The notes under the pieces were generated by a model. It worked only from the letters and a program-made list of their open reading frames with translations, was not told the origin of the DNA and ran no database searches. This document shows positions 1 through 7,437 of a DNA stretch of 7,564 nt, piece after piece. Both the position numbers and the translations under genes were made by a program. Each line of letters starts with the position of its first letter. Position 1 is the stretch's first letter. Origin of the DNA: a bacterium (lineage in GTDB: Bacteria > Blakebacterota > Blakebacteria > Blakebacterales > Blakebacteraceae); contig JALGWK010000076.1 of the NCBI GenBank assembly GCA_025774205.1, positions 1 to 7,564 of the forward strand. Reading direction: 5' to 3'.

Positions 1-402
1 GCCGACGATTACCTGATCAAGCCGTTCGCGTTCCCCGAACTCCTGGCCCGCATCCGGGCGCTCCTCCGACGCGGACGGTCAGACCAGATCCTGCGGCTGA
101 AATGCGATGACCTGGAAATGGACCTGGTAACCCGTCAGGTCAGACGCGCGGAGCAGGAGATCCAGCTCTCTGCCAGGGAATTCGACCTGCTGGAGTATCT
201 GATGCGCAACAGTGGACACATCGTATCGCGTCAGATGCTCGCCAGGGATGTCTGGATGGAGACAGACCGCGTCACCCCGATCGATAACGTGATCGATGTT
301 CATATGACCCGCCTGAGGAAGAAGGTGGACCAGCCCTTTGAGCAGCAGCTGATCCACACCGTCCGGGGCGTGGGATTCATCATCGGAGAGAACAACCAGT
401 GA
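1..402 (+). CDS. OmpR-family response regulator, C-terminal part
   Basis: This is the C-terminal 133 residues of a two-component response regulator; the start and the phospho-accepting Asp lie left of the window. The reading frame is open from base 1 and begins ADDYLIKPFAFPELLARIRA, the end of a receiver domain: K-P with the conserved Lys, then the alpha-5 helix. A short linker follows, then a winged-helix DNA-binding domain with the typical LSAREFDLLEYLMRN segment, the recognition-helix region around DNVIDVHMTRLRKKVD and the C-terminal hairpin HTVRGVGFII. By family it would bind promoter DNA as a dimer once phosphorylated by its partner kinase. Its stop codon overlaps the GTG start of the kinase gene, so the two are very probably co-transcribed and translationally coupled. 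The receiver tail resembles Cus-type metal-responsive regulators, but nothing here fixes the signal or targets. Confidence 0.95.
   Translation, partial: ADDYLIKPFAFPELLARIRALLRRGRSDQILRLKCDDLEMDLVTRQVRRAEQEIQLSAREFDLLEYLMRNSGHIVSRQMLARDVWMETDRVTPIDNVIDVHMTRLRKKVDQPFEQQLIHTVRGVGFIIGENNQ
385..390 (+). promoter_or_regulatory. Ribosome binding site of the kinase gene
   Basis: GGAGAG lies inside the end of the regulator gene, 8 nt before the GTG at 399. It supports a GTG start that overlaps the regulator stop codon (GTGA). Confidence 0.6.
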
Positions 403-1793
403 AATTCCGTCCAACCACCATACGCGTTCGCATGACTCTCTGGTATACCCTCTCCCTGGCCTCCATCATGGCCGTCCTCTCCATCGGCACCTGGTTCCTT
501 CTGGAAGGTCAGCTGGAACGCCAGACCTATGAGAGGCTCGAGGAGCGCACATCCACTCTCGACAACCTTATCCAGGCCAACCGGGATACCCGGTCGCTCT
601 ACCGTGAGATCGGAGATCTCGAGGAGAACGAGATCCTTCCTTACTTCCGGATACTCCGCAATGACGAGAAATTCTACCGATCAGATGACTGGGCCCGGGC
701 CGGGCTGGACACCACCCTGCTGGCGACCACGAGCGATTCCACCTGGGTATGGGAGTCTGCGGAGGGTCGCCGCTTCTTCCTGTTGACGATAACCGACATC
801 CACAACCGGACCAGGGGTGATTACCAGATCGCCGTAGCCGAGGATGCGGAAGTGGTTCTGGGAATCCTGCAGAGTCTGACCCGGATGCTGATCCTGGCCA
901 TACCGATCATGCTGATCCTGGCAGCGATCGGTGGTTATCTGCTGGCCGGCAGGGTTCTCGCGCCGGTCTCCACCCTGACTGCCAGGGCGGAGGAGATAAC
1001 CGCTCAACGATTATCCGACCGGTTGCCGGTCGGAAATCCCGACGATGAGTTCGGAAGACTGGCAACGGTATTCAATGAGATGCTCGGCCGGCTCCAATCC
1101 TCCTTCGATCAACTCCGCCGTTTCACCAGTGATGCCTCGCATGCCCTGCGCACACCGCTGACGGTACTCCGCAGTGTCGGAGAGGTGGGACAGCAGGAAT
1201 CCACCGATCTGGAATCGTTCCGGGATGTGGTCGGCAGCATGCTGGAGGAGACGGACCACATGACCTCGACGGTCGACGCCCTGCTCTCCCTGTCCCGGGC
1301 CGAAGCCGGTCTGGTTACCGGTGCCAGGGAATCATTCTCCCTGAACGAATTGACCGAGGAGGTCGTCAAGTCGATCGGCATCCTGGCCGAGGAGAAGCAT
1401 CAGGACCTGAACACCTCATCCGAGGTCGAGGTCTGGGCCACTGCCGACAGGAGCATGATCCGTCACGCTCTCATCAACCTGCTCGACAACGCCATCCGGT
1501 ACTCACCGCCCGGAGGCAGTATCAACCTGGTGGTGAGCTGCAACGATACAGGGAACGGCGTGATCGAGGTCAGCGACACCGGCCCGGGTATCCCGCCTGA
1601 GGAGCAGGAGAAGGTATTCGAAAGATTCCACCAGATCGCTGTGGAAACGCGGGAAGATGGAACAGGATCAGGGCTGGGTCTCGCCATCGCCAGGTGGGCG
1701 GTTCACCTCAATAATGGAACGATCGAACTCGAGAGTGAGCCCGGCTCAGGCAGCACCTTCAGGATCATCCTGCCCTTCACGGCGGAGGATTGA
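399..1793 (+). CDS. Membrane sensor histidine kinase (HAMP-HisKA-HATPase)
   Basis: A complete 464-residue sensor kinase, partner of the regulator upstream. The first membrane segment is about residues 13-35. A periplasmic sensor region of roughly 120 residues follows, then a second membrane segment at about 161-183 and a HAMP linker to about 238. The dimerisation/phosphoacceptor domain has its H-box at 241-255 with His248. The ATP-binding domain shows the N-box (N360, N364), the G1 box DTGPGI (393-398), the F-box FERF (407-410) and the G2 box GTGSGLGLA (421-429). All catalytic elements are present. The H-box reads SHALRTPL, with Ala where most HisKA kinases have Glu or Asp right after the His. 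The GTG start is chosen because GGAGAG precedes it by 8 nt and it gives the usual 4-nt overlap. The layout resembles CusS-type kinases, but the ligand is unknown. The last two codons and the stop lie inside the 50-bp direct repeat. Confidence 0.95.
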   Translation: MKFRPTTIRVRMTLWYTLSLASIMAVLSIGTWFLLEGQLERQTYERLEERTSTLDNLIQANRDTRSLYREIGDLEENEILPYFRILRNDEKFYRSDDWARAGLDTTLLATTSDSTWVWESAEGRRFFLLTITDIHNRTRGDYQIAVAEDAEVVLGILQSLTRMLILAIPIMLILAAIGGYLLAGRVLAPVSTLTARAEEITAQRLSDRLPVGNPDDEFGRLATVFNEMLGRLQSSFDQLRRFTSDASHALRTPLTVLRSVGEVGQQESTDLESFRDVVGSMLEETDHMTSTVDALLSLSRAEAGLVTGARESFSLNELTEEVVKSIGILAEEKHQDLNTSSEVEVWATADRSMIRHALINLLDNAIRYSPPGGSINLVVSCNDTGNGVIEVSDTGPGIPPEEQEKVFERFHQIAVETREDGTGSGLGLAIARWAVHLNNGTIELESEPGSGSTFRIILPFTAED

Positions 1794-1834
1794 TCCGACT
1801 ACTCTCCCGCGCCCCGTGAGGTCACCGTTTCCGC
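1785..1834. repeat. 50-bp direct repeat, left copy
   Basis: This stretch recurs at 3873-3922 in the same orientation with one mismatch (c1826 against t3914). It covers the last two codons and stop of the kinase. Read on the minus strand, it also holds a copy of the final 11 codons (AETVTSRGAGE) and the TAG stop of the 825-residue lipoprotein gene that actually ends at 3887. The mismatch is synonymous in that frame (ACG against ACA for Thr817). Five bases after the repeat comes the stop codon of the oxidoreductase gene. Confidence 0.95.
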
Positions 1835-1839
1835 TTCAG

Positions 1840-2850
1840 CTATTTAGTTGAAGGGTTCTCAATGAGAGTAATGACCACATTGCCCTTTTTATGTCCCAAG
1901 TCTACATATTTGTGGGCTTTAGCTATCTCCTCAAGAGGATAACTTCTATCAATAACAGGTTTGATCCGGCCTGATTCCAGAAGCTCTTTAAGCACTATTA
2001 AGTCTTTCGTTCTTTCCTCAGGTTTTCTGAGACCGGTCGCAGCAAATCTGGCTTTTTTCCCGGAGCCCATTAAGGTCCAAAGTGCATTGACAAGAAATCC
2101 CAGGCTAAACCCCGCCTCAAGAAATATCCCTTTCGGAGTCAGTGACTGTTTGCTCTGTGTAAAAGCTGTTTTACCTACTGCATCAAAAATGAGGTCGTAA
2201 GTCTCTCCTGATTTCGTAAAGTCCTGACTGGTATAGTCGATTACGTGCTGTGCTCCAAGAGCCCTGACCCATTCAACGTTGGCGGAGCTGGTTACTGCTG
2301 TCACATCTGCACCGTAGTAATTGGCAATCTGAACCGCTGCAGCACCGATACTTCCAGAAGCTCCATAAATCAGGACTTTTTGTCCCTTTTGAATATTTCC
2401 AGTATCCCGCAAAAAGGGCAGAGCGGTCAAAAATCCGTCCACACTGGAGGCGGATTCTGCATGGTCCAGATTGAATGGTTTGATAGCCAGGACACCATTT
2501 TCAGGTGAGGTGATATACTCTGCATTGGCACCAAATTTCGGTCCGGCGGTGCCAAAAACCTGGTCGCCATTTTTGAAACGGGTTACATCGCTGCCACATG
2601 CTACGACTTCCCCGGATAACTCCTCCCCCAGGGTTGTGTGTTTAGGTTTTGTAATTCCTGTAAACAGCCTTGAAAAATAGGGCTCACCTTTTCGGAAGGT
2701 AGCCTCGGTGGCGGTGACGGTCGTAGCATGAATTTTGATGAGAATTTCATTATCCGCGGGTACCGGCTGCTCCACCTCAATGAGTTTGAGGACATCTGGA
2801 GATCCATATCTAGTATATGTAATTGCTTTCATGTCAGTCGCTTTCATCAT
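1840..2850 (-). CDS. NAD(P)-dependent MDR quinone oxidoreductase-like
   Basis: A complete 336-residue medium-chain dehydrogenase/reductase of the zinc-independent quinone oxidoreductase type, expected to be a soluble enzyme using NAD(P)H to reduce quinones or enones. The N-terminal GroES-like domain (about 8-130) includes GEELSGEV (75-82). The Rossmann domain begins near 157 with the cofactor loop GASGSIG (163-169), then IDYTSQDF and a long C-terminal lobe with GRIKPVIDRSYPLEEIAKAH. I see no structural-zinc Cys cluster. The family start is normally MKAITYTRYGSPDV, which would be the third Met (codon 2830-2832); the earlier ATGs add MMKATD. Neither start has a clear Shine-Dalgarno, unlike the neighbouring genes. 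Together with the low GC and the wording of the N-terminus, this suggests transfer from a Bacteroidota-like donor. The gene is intact. It stands alone, convergent with the kinase and divergent from the gene at 3027. The substrate cannot be told. Confidence 0.93.
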   Translation of the reverse strand: MMKATDMKAITYTRYGSPDVLKLIEVEQPVPADNEILIKIHATTVTATEATFRKGEPYFSRLFTGITKPKHTTLGEELSGEVVACGSDVTRFKNGDQVFGTAGPKFGANAEYITSPENGVLAIKPFNLDHAESASSVDGFLTALPFLRDTGNIQKGQKVLIYGASGSIGAAAVQIANYYGADVTAVTSSANVEWVRALGAQHVIDYTSQDFTKSGETYDLIFDAVGKTAFTQSKQSLTPKGIFLEAGFSLGFLVNALWTLMGSGKKARFAATGLRKPEERTKDLIVLKELLESGRIKPVIDRSYPLEEIAKAHKYVDLGHKKGNVVITLIENPSTK

Positions 2851-2950
2851 ATTAGTTTGATGATTTTAACGGTTACTGTGTTGATCGCATCCGTTCCAGG
2901 CTGACCGGGGCCCTGAGCAGATACCGGGCAGTATGTGCGAGTCCATTTCC

Positions 2951-2979
2951 TTTTATTACCTACTTTATTGCGGTACAAT
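2951..2979 (+). promoter_or_regulatory. Possible sigma-70-type promoter for the gene at 3027
   Basis: TACAAT at 2974-2979 matches the -10 consensus in five of six positions. With a 17-nt spacer the -35 position reads TTTTAT (2951-2956), a weak match. It sits 47 nt before the start codon in the 176-bp divergent spacer. The rest of the spacer holds nothing I can name. Its left part (2851 to about 2880) is AT-rich like the oxidoreductase gene, and base composition changes near 2885. Confidence 0.25.
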
Positions 2980-3026
2980 CCGGTTCACGACGGTTTTATA
3001 ACCAGAAATCATCCGGAGTAATCCAC

Positions 3027-3860
3027 ATGGGACGTATAGAGAATACCTTCAAACTGCTGGGCGCCTCCTGGCAGGTACTCAAAGCGGACAAGGAACTTCT
3101 GTGGCTGCCGATCCTTTCGGGGTTGGCCAGCATCATTGTCGCCGCTTCCTTCATTCTCCCCATCTCGCTCACTGTCGGATTAGAGGTACTCGAGGAAGGT
3201 GACCCGATGTACTACGTGGTCCTCTTCGTCATGTATTTCATTCTCATGTTTATCGCCATCTTCTTCAACGCCGCTCTTGTACATGCCGCCCTCGATCGTC
3301 TTCAGGGTGGTGATCCCACCGTCGGTAGCGCCATCGGGGGAGCCATGGCGAAGCTCTGGCTCATATTCAAGTGGGCGTTCGTGGCTGCCACGGTTTCACT
3401 GGTCCTGCAAATCGTAGAGGAGAAACTGGATTTCCTTGGGAAGATCGTGATCAGACTCATCGGGCTCGCCTGGACGCTTGTAACATTCCTGATAGTTCCC
3501 ATCCTGGTCGTCGAGGACATTGGAGTGATGGAAGCCCTCAGGCGCTCCGGTCAGCTTTTCAAGAAGACCTGGGGGGAAAACGTCACGGCTCAGATAGGCT
3601 TCGGGATCGTCGGTATTCTGCTGTGGCTGCCTGCCTTCGGTCTGATCGCCGCCGGTGCTGCAGCGGGTGGACCGATCCTGTTCCCGGCCATCGCGATCGG
3701 GATCGTCTGGATCATACTCTCCATGGTAGTACTGAGCGCACTTAACGCGATTTTCAGGACAGCGCTCTATCTCTATGCATCCCGCGGTGAGACACCCAGC
3801 GAGCACTTCCCCCGGGAGGTTTTAGAGGGGGCTTTTGCGCCGAAGCGCAGGCGGTATTAA
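3027..3860 (+). CDS. Polytopic membrane protein, DUF6159-like
   Basis: A complete 277-residue inner-membrane protein of unknown function. Hydrophobic segments lie at about 26-51, 62-88, 112-130, 140-163, 190-212 and 216-240, so six membrane spans are likely. The N-terminus (GRIENTFKLLGASWQVLKAD), the middle part HAALDRLQGGDPTV (86-99) and LFKKTWGENV (177-186) fit, from memory, the DUF6159 family of uncharacterised integral membrane proteins found widely in bacteria and archaea. There is no signal peptide or enzymatic motif, and the tail is basic (KRRRY). The ATG is preceded by GGAG at 3015-3018, 8 nt upstream. GC content is nearer to the host genes than to the AT-rich oxidoreductase gene. It is convergent with the lipoprotein gene, only 26 nt separating the two stop codons. 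It sits inside the segment flanked by the direct repeats, but is not obviously foreign by itself. Confidence 0.9.
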   Translation: MGRIENTFKLLGASWQVLKADKELLWLPILSGLASIIVAASFILPISLTVGLEVLEEGDPMYYVVLFVMYFILMFIAIFFNAALVHAALDRLQGGDPTVGSAIGGAMAKLWLIFKWAFVAATVSLVLQIVEEKLDFLGKIVIRLIGLAWTLVTFLIVPILVVEDIGVMEALRRSGQLFKKTWGENVTAQIGFGIVGILLWLPAFGLIAAGAAAGGPILFPAIAIGIVWIILSMVVLSALNAIFRTALYLYASRGETPSEHFPREVLEGAFAPKRRRY

Positions 3861-3872
3861 ACGGCGACGTCA

Positions 3873-3922
3873 GAGGATTGATCCGACTACTCTCCCGCGC
3901 CCCGTGAGGTCACTGTTTCCGC
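3873..3922. repeat. 50-bp direct repeat, right copy
   Basis: Matches 1785-1834 at 49 of 50 positions. Here the repeat forms the real 3' end of the 825-residue lipoprotein gene (codons 815-825 and TAG) plus 14 nt beyond it. It also carries GAGGATTGA, the last two codons and stop of the kinase, without any kinase gene attached. ACGGCG at 3861-3866 also occurs just left of the other copy (1779-1784), so the match may extend further with a 6-nt difference in spacing. Confidence 0.95.
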
Positions 3923-6364
3923 CGGCTCACGGGTACGAAGTTCAACCCGGGCTCTCGTCTCCTCACCGCCATTGAACCTGCAGTCGAAGGTCAGCGTGTG
4001 GTCCCCGTTACGCACCTGCCACTCCCCGGGATTGATCACCACCCCCAGCTGCTCATTCCAGTTTTCATCGCGTAGAGTGGCGCGGATCCCCCCCTCGTAC
4101 TTCAGCGACCATCCTTCGGGCAGCTGGATCTTGAAGCGGACCTCGGAGCCGACACCGATTCGCATGGAGAGATCCGAGATCGACCCTCCTTCGGCGGTGA
4201 CGATCCACTGCAGTTCCTGTACATCACCGGGATTGGTGAAGGAGAACGAGGAGGCAGCCGGCTCACCCGGCTGGCGGACCGGCCGGTCGTGGCGATAGAT
4301 GTGGGCCGTGACCGGGATCAGGGCCCAGCTCTCCGGTCCCGTTTCCCAGAGTGAGAATTCGGCGTCGATGTCCTCCATCCGCCGCTTCTGATCGATAGTG
4401 AAAGCGTCGGCCATCCGGGCCCGCTCCCACAGACCGATGGCCGCCAGGATCCGGTCGGTGTACCCGTTCGCCTCCAGCTCGTCGTATCCCGTCACGAACG
4501 AGTAGCCGGCATCGAAGGCCGCTGAACGGGCCAGCATCCATTCGACATCCTCGATACTGGTGTTTGGACGCATCGAGAACCAGCCGAGCATCCCCGGCAT
4601 GAGGTTCCGGCGGAAGTAGGCCTGGTTCTTGAGTCGATACTCTGTCTGGCTCTCCCGGAACCCCGCGTACCAGGGCTCCCCCCAGTTCATCCGGGTATAG
4701 ATGTGCCAGAAATAATGTGAGGTCCGGCTGGCGTCGGCGATATACCGCTGCCGGATATCGGGATCGAGGCTCTCGTACCAGGTGGTGGTGAACAGGATCT
4801 CACCGTAGTTGCCCATTCCGGTCGAGCGGTTCCCTTCGAGACCGTCGAAGGAGATCTGGCGTACTCGGGTCTCATTGAAGAAATCGGCGATGTTGCCGGC
4901 CATCTCGATTCCGAGTTCGGCGTTCGTGAGAAAAACGTTGTATCCGTGATCGGCCAGCTTGGCGATCGGCGCCCCCGCCACGTGCTCAGCTCTCCCCGTC
5001 CCATAGGCGCCCCGCTGGCAGTCGAGCAGTTGCCACGGCGCCTCCGTGGAAACAGTTCCGTAAATGATCAGTTCCTCACCGATCACAACCGTACGCAGTT
5101 TGTTGTTCCGGTACTGGTTAAAGAAATCGGGGGAAGCGATTCCGATCTCGGTCTCGCGCGCTCCGATCGCGACGGTCAGCGTGCTCTCACCCACCCTGGC
5201 CAGCCTGGGATCGGGGACCGGGGTTACCCAGGCATCATTGGTGGTCACAAAGTTCGACAGGGTGTGCACGCCGACGTAGATCCCGACCCGCTCGGCTCTC
5301 TCGACACAGGCCCGGAATCCGGCCCGCCCGTTCGGGAACTGTTGGACCTTGAGTTCGAAGTGCCCCCAGGTCCTGAAAGGACCGGAATGGTAGAGAGTCT
5401 GCAGCCCGGCCTGCCGGACATACGTGAGGGCCCGGTCGATATCCGCCTCCCCGAAGTCCATGATCATGTACGCCCCCGCCGCTCCGGGTGCCTTCTTCCC
5501 CCACTGGCCATCGATCATCGGGTGCGGCAGCCCCTCGGCGATCTCGATCTCCCCGATCGTGTCGAGGGCCCTGGAGGAAGGGGAACCGAAGAGCGCGATC
5601 TTCGATCCGACAACCCCTCCGTCAGAGAACGGCGGCGCAACGTAGCGGTCGTGGTTCCAGTTCTCGATCACCCGCTCTTCGAAGCGATTCCGGCAATACG
5701 CCTGCAGGGTCGAACCGAAATCCTCCGGTTTGGCCGCCTCCACGCGGTAGAGGACATACCGCTTCCCCTCCTCACTCAGATCGGAGTAATCGTCCCCCTC
5801 GAAGATGTCGAGCTGGGGCATGCAGTCGTTCTCGTTCCAGGGATAGCCGCCAAGGGTTTTCGGGTTCAGGGCCTGCAGTCCCACTGCGAAGACCGAGTCA
5901 CGGACCACCCCGACCGTTTCACCGATTGTCCCGTCGATCGTGGTGGCATACGGTCCCCAGACAATGAGTTCAATCGCCTCAACAGGCGCGATCGCGGTCA
6001 GCTCGAAGGTTATATGGGTCGCCTTGCTCACAATCTGTACCGTGGCTGTCACATCTCCCGGGAACTGCAGTGTCAGCAGGCCGGTATCACGATCCCAGCG
6101 TGAGGAGCGGGGGGCGTGGAGGACACTGTCGATCCGGACCGAGAGCAGAGGTGAGGACATGCCGTGAGGGTTGTGGACCTGTCCGGTCTCCAGATTGACC
6201 AACCGGGTAACCTCACCGCGTCCATTCAATGTGATGCCCAGTGTCCCGGCAGTCAGTTCATCTGGTCGGGATCCACAGCCGGAGGAAGAGAGCACCAGCA
6301 GCAACAACAGCGATCCTGCCATCCAGCCGGTCGATCCCGGCAGGTGCAGAGCATTCATACGCAT
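3887..6364 (-). CDS. Lipoprotein with glycoside-hydrolase-like barrel, unassigned family
   Basis: A complete 825-residue exported protein, probably a lipid-anchored carbohydrate-active enzyme; the substrate is unknown. The N-terminus has a hydrophobic signal (about 14-27) and a weak lipobox SSGC with Cys30. Residues about 38-275 look like a beta-sandwich (TLGITLNGRGEVTRLVNLET, WGPY). Residues about 295-650 look like a TIM barrel: MIMDFGEADIDRAL, LQTLYHSGPF, GVHTLSNFVT (365-374), then NVFLTN and QISFDGLEG (503-511), whose Asp507 and Glu510 are candidate catalytic acids. The barrel appears to carry a small beta-rich insert at about 392-473. A C-terminal beta domain covers about 685-815. The family placement is by overall layout and not by a recognised signature, so another sugar-active or even non-catalytic role remains possible. 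ATG 6364 is preferred over ATG 6358 because of the ribosome binding site. The last 11 codons lie in the 50-bp direct repeat. Confidence 0.85.
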   Translation of the reverse strand: MRMNALHLPGSTGWMAGSLLLLLVLSSSGCGSRPDELTAGTLGITLNGRGEVTRLVNLETGQVHNPHGMSSPLLSVRIDSVLHAPRSSRWDRDTGLLTLQFPGDVTATVQIVSKATHITFELTAIAPVEAIELIVWGPYATTIDGTIGETVGVVRDSVFAVGLQALNPKTLGGYPWNENDCMPQLDIFEGDDYSDLSEEGKRYVLYRVEAAKPEDFGSTLQAYCRNRFEERVIENWNHDRYVAPPFSDGGVVGSKIALFGSPSSRALDTIGEIEIAEGLPHPMIDGQWGKKAPGAAGAYMIMDFGEADIDRALTYVRQAGLQTLYHSGPFRTWGHFELKVQQFPNGRAGFRACVERAERVGIYVGVHTLSNFVTTNDAWVTPVPDPRLARVGESTLTVAIGARETEIGIASPDFFNQYRNNKLRTVVIGEELIIYGTVSTEAPWQLLDCQRGAYGTGRAEHVAGAPIAKLADHGYNVFLTNAELGIEMAGNIADFFNETRVRQISFDGLEGNRSTGMGNYGEILFTTTWYESLDPDIRQRYIADASRTSHYFWHIYTRMNWGEPWYAGFRESQTEYRLKNQAYFRRNLMPGMLGWFSMRPNTSIEDVEWMLARSAAFDAGYSFVTGYDELEANGYTDRILAAIGLWERARMADAFTIDQKRRMEDIDAEFSLWETGPESWALIPVTAHIYRHDRPVRQPGEPAASSFSFTNPGDVQELQWIVTAEGGSISDLSMRIGVGSEVRFKIQLPEGWSLKYEGGIRATLRDENWNEQLGVVINPGEWQVRNGDHTLTFDCRFNGGEETRARVELRTREPAETVTSRGAGE

Positions 6365-6547: not shown

Positions 6548-6554
6548 TCAAGTG

Positions 6555-7417
6555 ATGGAAGAAAAAATACGCCACCATGAATCCTCATCACGTTTCTCCG
6601 GAATGGCGACATTTCTGAATGCGCCGCTGGTACGAGATCCAATCCTGCTGGATATAGCGCTAATCGGGGTACCCTTCGACGGTGGAGTCGAGAACCGGCC
6701 CGGTCAGCGTCATGCTCCACGTGAGATACGCAATATGTCGAGTCTGCTCCGCCCCATCCATCACGTCACGGGGGTGAATCCATACGATCTCTGCCGGGTA
6801 GGCGACATGGGAGATATCCCCTTCCCTCATGCCCTGGATCTGGAGGCGAGCCACTCAGATATCACGAAGTTCGTCAGTGAGGTGCACAACGCCTGCGTGG
6901 TGCCGCTCTGCGTGGGAGGTGACCACTCCATCAGCCTGCCGGCCTTGCGCGCAATCGCCCATGACAGATCGGTCGGGATGGTACTGGTTGATGCTCATAC
7001 CGACACGCTCGACGAGGAACTCGGCTCCAGATTCAGCCACGGCACCCCGTTCCGGCGGGCCGTTGAAGAGGAGCTCCTTGATCCTGCCCGGACGGTGATG
7101 ATAGGCATCAGGGGGCCCCGGAGTTCGACTGAGGGCTTTACCTTCGCACTTGAATCGGGAATACGCGTCATCTCCATGGAAGAATTCACGGAGATGGGTG
7201 TGCAGTCAGTGATCGCTGAAACAAGGCGCGTGGTGGGAGCATCGAGGCGCAGGCGCTGATCCGGGGACTGCTCGGGCTGGATCTCATCGGAGGCGACGTG
7301 GTCGAGGTATCGCCACCGTTTGATCCGACGGGAAACACCGCCCTTGTCGGCGCCACAATGATGTATGAGATCCTGTGTGTTCTGGCAGAGAGTGTTGTCC
7401 AGCGAAGAACAGCATAG
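6555..7417 (+). pseudogene. Agmatinase/guanidinobutyrase-type ureohydrolase, internal deletion and frameshift
   Basis: This is the remnant of a Mn-dependent ureohydrolase (SpeB-like family), which cleaves a guanidino compound such as agmatine or guanidinobutyrate to urea and an amine. Counting from ATG 6555, the first part carries VPFDGGVENRPGQRHAPREI, the metal motif GGDHS (His124), DAHTD (Asp147, His149, Asp151), HGTPFRRA and MIGIRGPR. It should then continue into VYxSFDxDxLDPxxAPGTGTPExGG. Instead, after RRVVG near 7235, the frame runs into a stop at 7257-7259. The family C-terminus resumes in another frame: GGSIEAQALIRGL from 7232, GGDVVEVSPPFDPTGNTALV, and a stop at 7415-7417. Compared from memory with E. 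coli SpeB, about 28 codons are missing, including two Asp metal ligands. Even with the frame restored, the product could not bind the full Mn pair. The substrate within the family cannot be assigned. The unbroken frame by itself ends at 7259 (234 residues). Confidence 0.88.
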
Positions 7418-7437
7418 AACCAGTAAACCGGCTCAGA

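Follow-up and report, generated by a model that had tools for sequence, protein, structure and literature searches.

A probable recent two-gene insertion flanked by a 50-bp duplication of a convergent gene junction in an uncultured genus of the Blakebacteraceae

Described insertions with long direct repeats

Insertion with long target duplication was first seen in Helicobacter pylori, where it involved restriction-modification genes, as described in PMC1643837, and the duplications are given as being on the order of 100 bp in PMC3874152; both papers, and PMC3031569, cite Nobusato et al. 2000 in this connection. Here, we describe a locus in a bacterial contig (JALGWK010000076.1 of assembly GCA_025774205.1, Blakebacteraceae; the whole stretch of 7,564 nucleotides is called the window), in which a 2,038-bp segment with an oxidoreductase gene and a DUF6159 gene lies between two direct 50-bp repeats. 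As in the described insertions, a related genome has an orthologous empty site with a single copy of the repeat (locus L003), the flanking repeats are long (50 bp) and derive from the target, namely from the ends of both neighbouring genes, and neither a transposase nor terminal inverted repeats were recognised. The locus differs from them in its cargo, which is not of the restriction-modification type (neither the oxidoreductase nor the DUF6159 gene matches a defence family in PADLOC), in the length of its duplication (50 bp versus the order of 100 bp), and in the comparison itself, which sets one species of an uncultured genus against another rather than strain against strain. Restriction-modification cargo was a frequent association in the first description rather than a strict definition, and the locus is a single clear case of an already described form of DNA uptake and does not represent a novel kind of mobile element.

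Within bacterial species, small variable segments bounded by direct repeats are frequent, most of the repeats being shorter than 30 bp (PMC2884548); our locus shares with them the short variable segment, the flanking direct repeats, and the lack of mobile-element genes, but its repeat is 50 bp long and is placed at a gene junction. In Arabidopsis, transposed genes are accompanied by a flanking repeat of more than 30 bp that is also present at the empty orthologous site, for which the authors discuss integration of a circle as well as long target duplication (PMC2869330). That case differs from ours, however, in that native genes moved in a plant nuclear genome, whereas the genes described here were probably acquired. 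Direct repeats and a restored gene end are also features of integrase-type islands at gene 3' ends, but the insert has no integrase gene, and the repeat is not a conserved attachment sequence such as the end of a tRNA or housekeeping gene, as would be expected of a tyrosine-recombinase element. A DDE transposon or insertion sequence is not indicated either, as there are no terminal inverted repeats and no duplication of 2-14 bp.

A duplicated junction and its empty counterpart

The window reads, in order, through the end of a response regulator gene, a kinase gene, repeat copy 1, the oxidoreductase gene, the DUF6159 gene, repeat copy 2, a lipoprotein gene, and a damaged arginase-family gene. 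Copy 1 (1785-1834) and copy 2 (3873-3922) start 2,088 bp apart and are identical at 49 of 50 positions, the sole mismatch being C at 1826 versus T at 3914; a pair of near-identical 50-bp direct repeats had been reported at these same coordinates in an earlier note on this DNA. The longest exact run in the pair is 41 bp, whereas 200 windows simulated with a first-order Markov model had no exact repeat longer than 17 bp, and about 1e-20 pairs with at most one mismatch in 50 are expected by chance. Copy 1 is made up of the three final kinase codons (GAG GAT TGA), a 5-bp spacer, and 36 bp that are a non-coding duplicate of the 3' end of the lipoprotein gene. Copy 2 begins with a 9-bp duplicate of the kinase end, which is detached from any kinase gene, and continues through the 5-bp spacer into 36 bp that are the functional 3' end of the lipoprotein gene. 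Each copy is, in other words, a complete piece of one two-gene junction. Leftward of the copies, six further bases agree at four positions (1779-1784 and 3867-3872), and further left of copy 2, across a 6-bp interruption, ACGGCG is a possible extra match that is too short to weigh. The repeat was also considered as a hairpin, a terminator, or a known RNA, which is ruled out: it folds no better than shuffled sequences, and no Rfam family was matched in the window.

The genome for comparison was the sole available congener, G001, which is about 80% identical at the DNA level and carries the corresponding locus on contig JALGVQ010000029.1 (L003). There, the kinase and lipoprotein genes converge with their stop codons 8 bp apart, and the flanks of the window, when joined through one copy of the repeat, can be aligned to L003 over the whole junction with no gap, each flank sharing about 80% identity with that locus. 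The empty site that the earlier note had named as the thing to look for in close relatives, in which a single repeat joins the kinase to the lipoprotein gene, is therefore present in the congener. DUF6159 is absent from G001 (82% complete), and the best match to the oxidoreductase in that genome is just 31% identical. The presence and absence of the insert are thus seen between two species of one genus; comparison of the samples of both genomes for insertions covered about 10 kb of aligned sequence, the window itself included.

The age of the duplication can be gauged from the same alignment. In the 50-bp stretch, L003 and the window agree at only 23-24 of 50 positions (26-27 differ), whereas the two copies in the window differ at one, and the duplication is therefore far younger than the split of the two species, unless the copies have been homogenised. 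At the variable position, the congener has T, as in copy 2 and unlike the C of copy 1, so the single change is most simply placed in copy 1, in the half where coding has been lost, with one genome serving as the outgroup.

The inserted segment itself (1835-3872), which the congener lacks at this position, occurs once in its own genome. It contains an intact gene for a zinc-type NAD(P)H:quinone oxidoreductase/alcohol dehydrogenase (1840-2850, minus strand), the stop codon of which is 5 bp from copy 1, and an intact gene for a DUF6159 membrane protein (3027-3860, plus strand; Pfam PF19656, 2.7e-42), the stop codon of which is 12 bp from copy 2. The two genes diverge from an intergenic region of 176 bp (2851-3026), and together with it they make up 2,021 of the 2,038 bp. 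No open reading frame for a transposase or integrase was recognised in the insert, in keeping with the earlier note, neither gene has a recombinase or transposase domain, and no terminal inverted repeats were found at the ends of the segment.

The oxidoreductase gene has the most atypical codon usage among 337 long open reading frames sampled from the genome (z -4.1), and its guanine-cytosine (GC) content is 46% against a mean of 62% for the sample. The DUF6159 gene (57% GC) is near-native in composition and mildly atypical in codon usage (z -1.2), and its distribution is patchy, with matches in 10 of 386 sampled genomes, six of which are above the family cut-off. Because the codon usage of the one is foreign and the other is rare, there is good support for a horizontal origin of the oxidoreductase, and DUF6159 is likely to have been acquired in this way as well, though perhaps from a different source. 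The nearest plasmid relatives are 53% identical for the oxidoreductase and at most 40% for DUF6159. The oxidoreductase matches an alcohol dehydrogenase family in the phage database, DUF6159 matches no family there, and neither gene has relatives among the viral contigs. The class of genome G289 offered no better donor of DUF6159, and in the DUF6159 loci that were retrieved, which are short, no oxidoreductase gene adjoins it.

Entry of the segment and competing explanations

We consider that a recent insertion of the 2,038-bp, two-gene segment, with duplication of 50 bp of its landing site, explains the locus best, a template switch during repair being the favoured route; we would put the probability of this reading at about 60%. 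The 2.0-kb segment with its two divergent genes would have entered the convergent junction of the kinase and lipoprotein genes after the split from the congener, and its entry would have left one copy of 50 bp of the landing site on each side. Both neighbouring genes stayed intact, because their 3' ends are included in the duplicated stretch. The segment was most likely integrated in a single, non-recurring event independent of any recombinase. As to its mechanism, repair synthesis, begun where a fork had broken or stalled, would have copied beyond the junction, switched template to an incoming DNA fragment, and then rejoined the chromosome about 50 bp back from the point at which it had left. 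The insertion, the duplicated junction, and its youth relative to the species split can be read from the comparison with the congener, and the template switch and the horizontal origin of the two genes are inferred. A ComEC-type competence protein is encoded in the genome, which makes the uptake of free DNA plausible. Furthermore, the repeat does not occur in its own genome beyond this pair, and no second direct repeat with a length of 40 bp or more, an identity of at least 95%, and a spacing of at least 300 bp was found in 621 kb on 101 contigs, which include the window and amount to about a fifth of the genome. The insertion thus looks sporadic rather than the product of an active element.

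Several observations weigh against this explanation. The locus was seen in one congener with a completeness of 82%, and the species is represented by one genome; no donor sequence was found. The two cargo genes are unlike in composition (46% and 57% GC), by which the segment may be composite or may have been assembled in several steps, and both cargo stop codons are no more than 12 bp away from the repeats, which is a neater fit than a random fragment need give. The proposal in the earlier note of a duplication formed during repair, or of recombination between relatives, is compatible with the locus but unproven.

Among the alternatives, the segment might be a non-autonomous circular cassette, its 50-bp repeats being attL and attR and the crossover having been made by an integrase encoded elsewhere. 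Integrase islands typically show direct repeats at a gene 3' end with the gene end restored, the genome has four tyrosine-recombinase matches, and the congener has integrase-less segments between copies of tRNA-Val. An attachment site is nevertheless disfavoured, because the repeat is neither a tRNA nor conserved (the congener version agrees at 23-24 of 50 positions), folds no better than shuffles, and is found at no other site in the genome; the window lacks the TGTGCCA-type repeats that accompany the tRNA-Val copies, and the insert contains no integrase. We therefore regard this explanation as doubtful, if worth keeping in mind. It is decidedly improbable that the oxidoreductase and DUF6159 genes form a recombinase-free cassette, moving as a circle and duplicating about 50 bp of its target; if true, this would be a circle route that has so far been proposed mainly for restriction-modification genes. 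A comparably small likelihood attaches to a staggered double-strand break, with ends of 50 nucleotides, at which a fragment was captured before fill-in and end joining. This would yield the correct product, and E. coli topA mutants are cited for such capture (PMC6954433), but the genome, which is 86% complete, gave no match to Ku, and this speaks against end joining, although Ku may be encoded in the missing 14%.

The assembly must also be considered, in that reads of two strains or organisms could have been joined through the shared exact run of 41 bp. The window is an entire short contig of a metagenome bin with 527 contigs and 4.8% contamination, and the same contig has a second anomaly, namely an arginase gene 2.6 kb away with a frame-shifting deletion of 91 bp; for these reasons, misassembly keeps a small but real chance. 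Reads wrongly joined through a shared word, however, leave a single copy and not two copies one base apart, the insert would still need to adjoin this junction sequence on both its sides somewhere, and both flanks are 80% identical to the congener. Loss is harder to credit: an old insertion could have been removed from the congener through recombination between the repeats, and deletions associated with direct repeats around small variable segments are known in E. coli and S. pyogenes (PMC2884548), but the copies are 98% identical whereas the two species share 46-48% identity at the site, and neither inserted gene is known from the congener, so that this history is very unlikely. Known DDE transposases produce target duplications of about 2-14 bp. 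The segment might be the remnant of one carried by a transposon that has lost its transposase, as the foreign codon usage of one inserted gene would allow; yet the 50-bp duplication exceeds that range, there are no terminal inverted repeats, and the two genes with their intergenic region take up 2,021 of the 2,038 bp. This origin is highly improbable, and the statement of the earlier note that the repeats do not fit a normal transposon target duplication holds.

Read as an insertion with long target duplication, the locus provides a clear-cut example: the congener has the empty site, the repeats have diverged by only 2%, and the cargo is not of the defence type. It suggests that this form of insertion is not special to restriction-modification genes, and long target duplication may be a general by-product of illegitimate DNA uptake, including in an uncultured lineage. 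Duplication of a junction between convergent genes admits foreign DNA with no damage to either gene.

Neighbouring genes and other observations

The left neighbour of the insert is a sensor histidine kinase gene (399-1793, plus strand), and the right neighbour is a gene for a putative lipoprotein of 825 amino acids (3887-6364, minus strand); each is 80% identical in DNA to its counterpart in the congener. The lipoprotein has no match in Pfam or NCBIfam and belongs to a conserved family of unknown function, with relatives of about 48-60% identity in Gemmatimonadota, Bacteroidota, Calditrichota, and others; its gene gave no match in a DNA search against plasmids. The arginase/agmatinase-family gene (6552-7418) has a deletion of about 91 bp that changes the frame and removes the part coding for a conserved SFDIDCLDPAFAPGTGTPE stretch. 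This gene reads intact in G001 (L239) and in G003 (L240), and the deletion reflects either a really broken gene or an assembly error.

Elsewhere in the genome that contains the window, tandem duplications that are nearly perfect, one with a 104-bp period (L129, 3102-3304) and one with a 61-bp period (L170, 223-345), are located near contig ends, and these are possibly assembly loops or real tandem duplications. In the congener, a region of 7 kb (L191, 912-7802) contains two full tRNA-Val(tac) genes and two partial or degenerate copies, with a TGTGCCAG.TATGTGCCAAA motif close to several of them. The tRNA-Val copies separate integrase-less segments, one of which has a Fic-domain gene, and the array looks like a series of tandem attachment sites.
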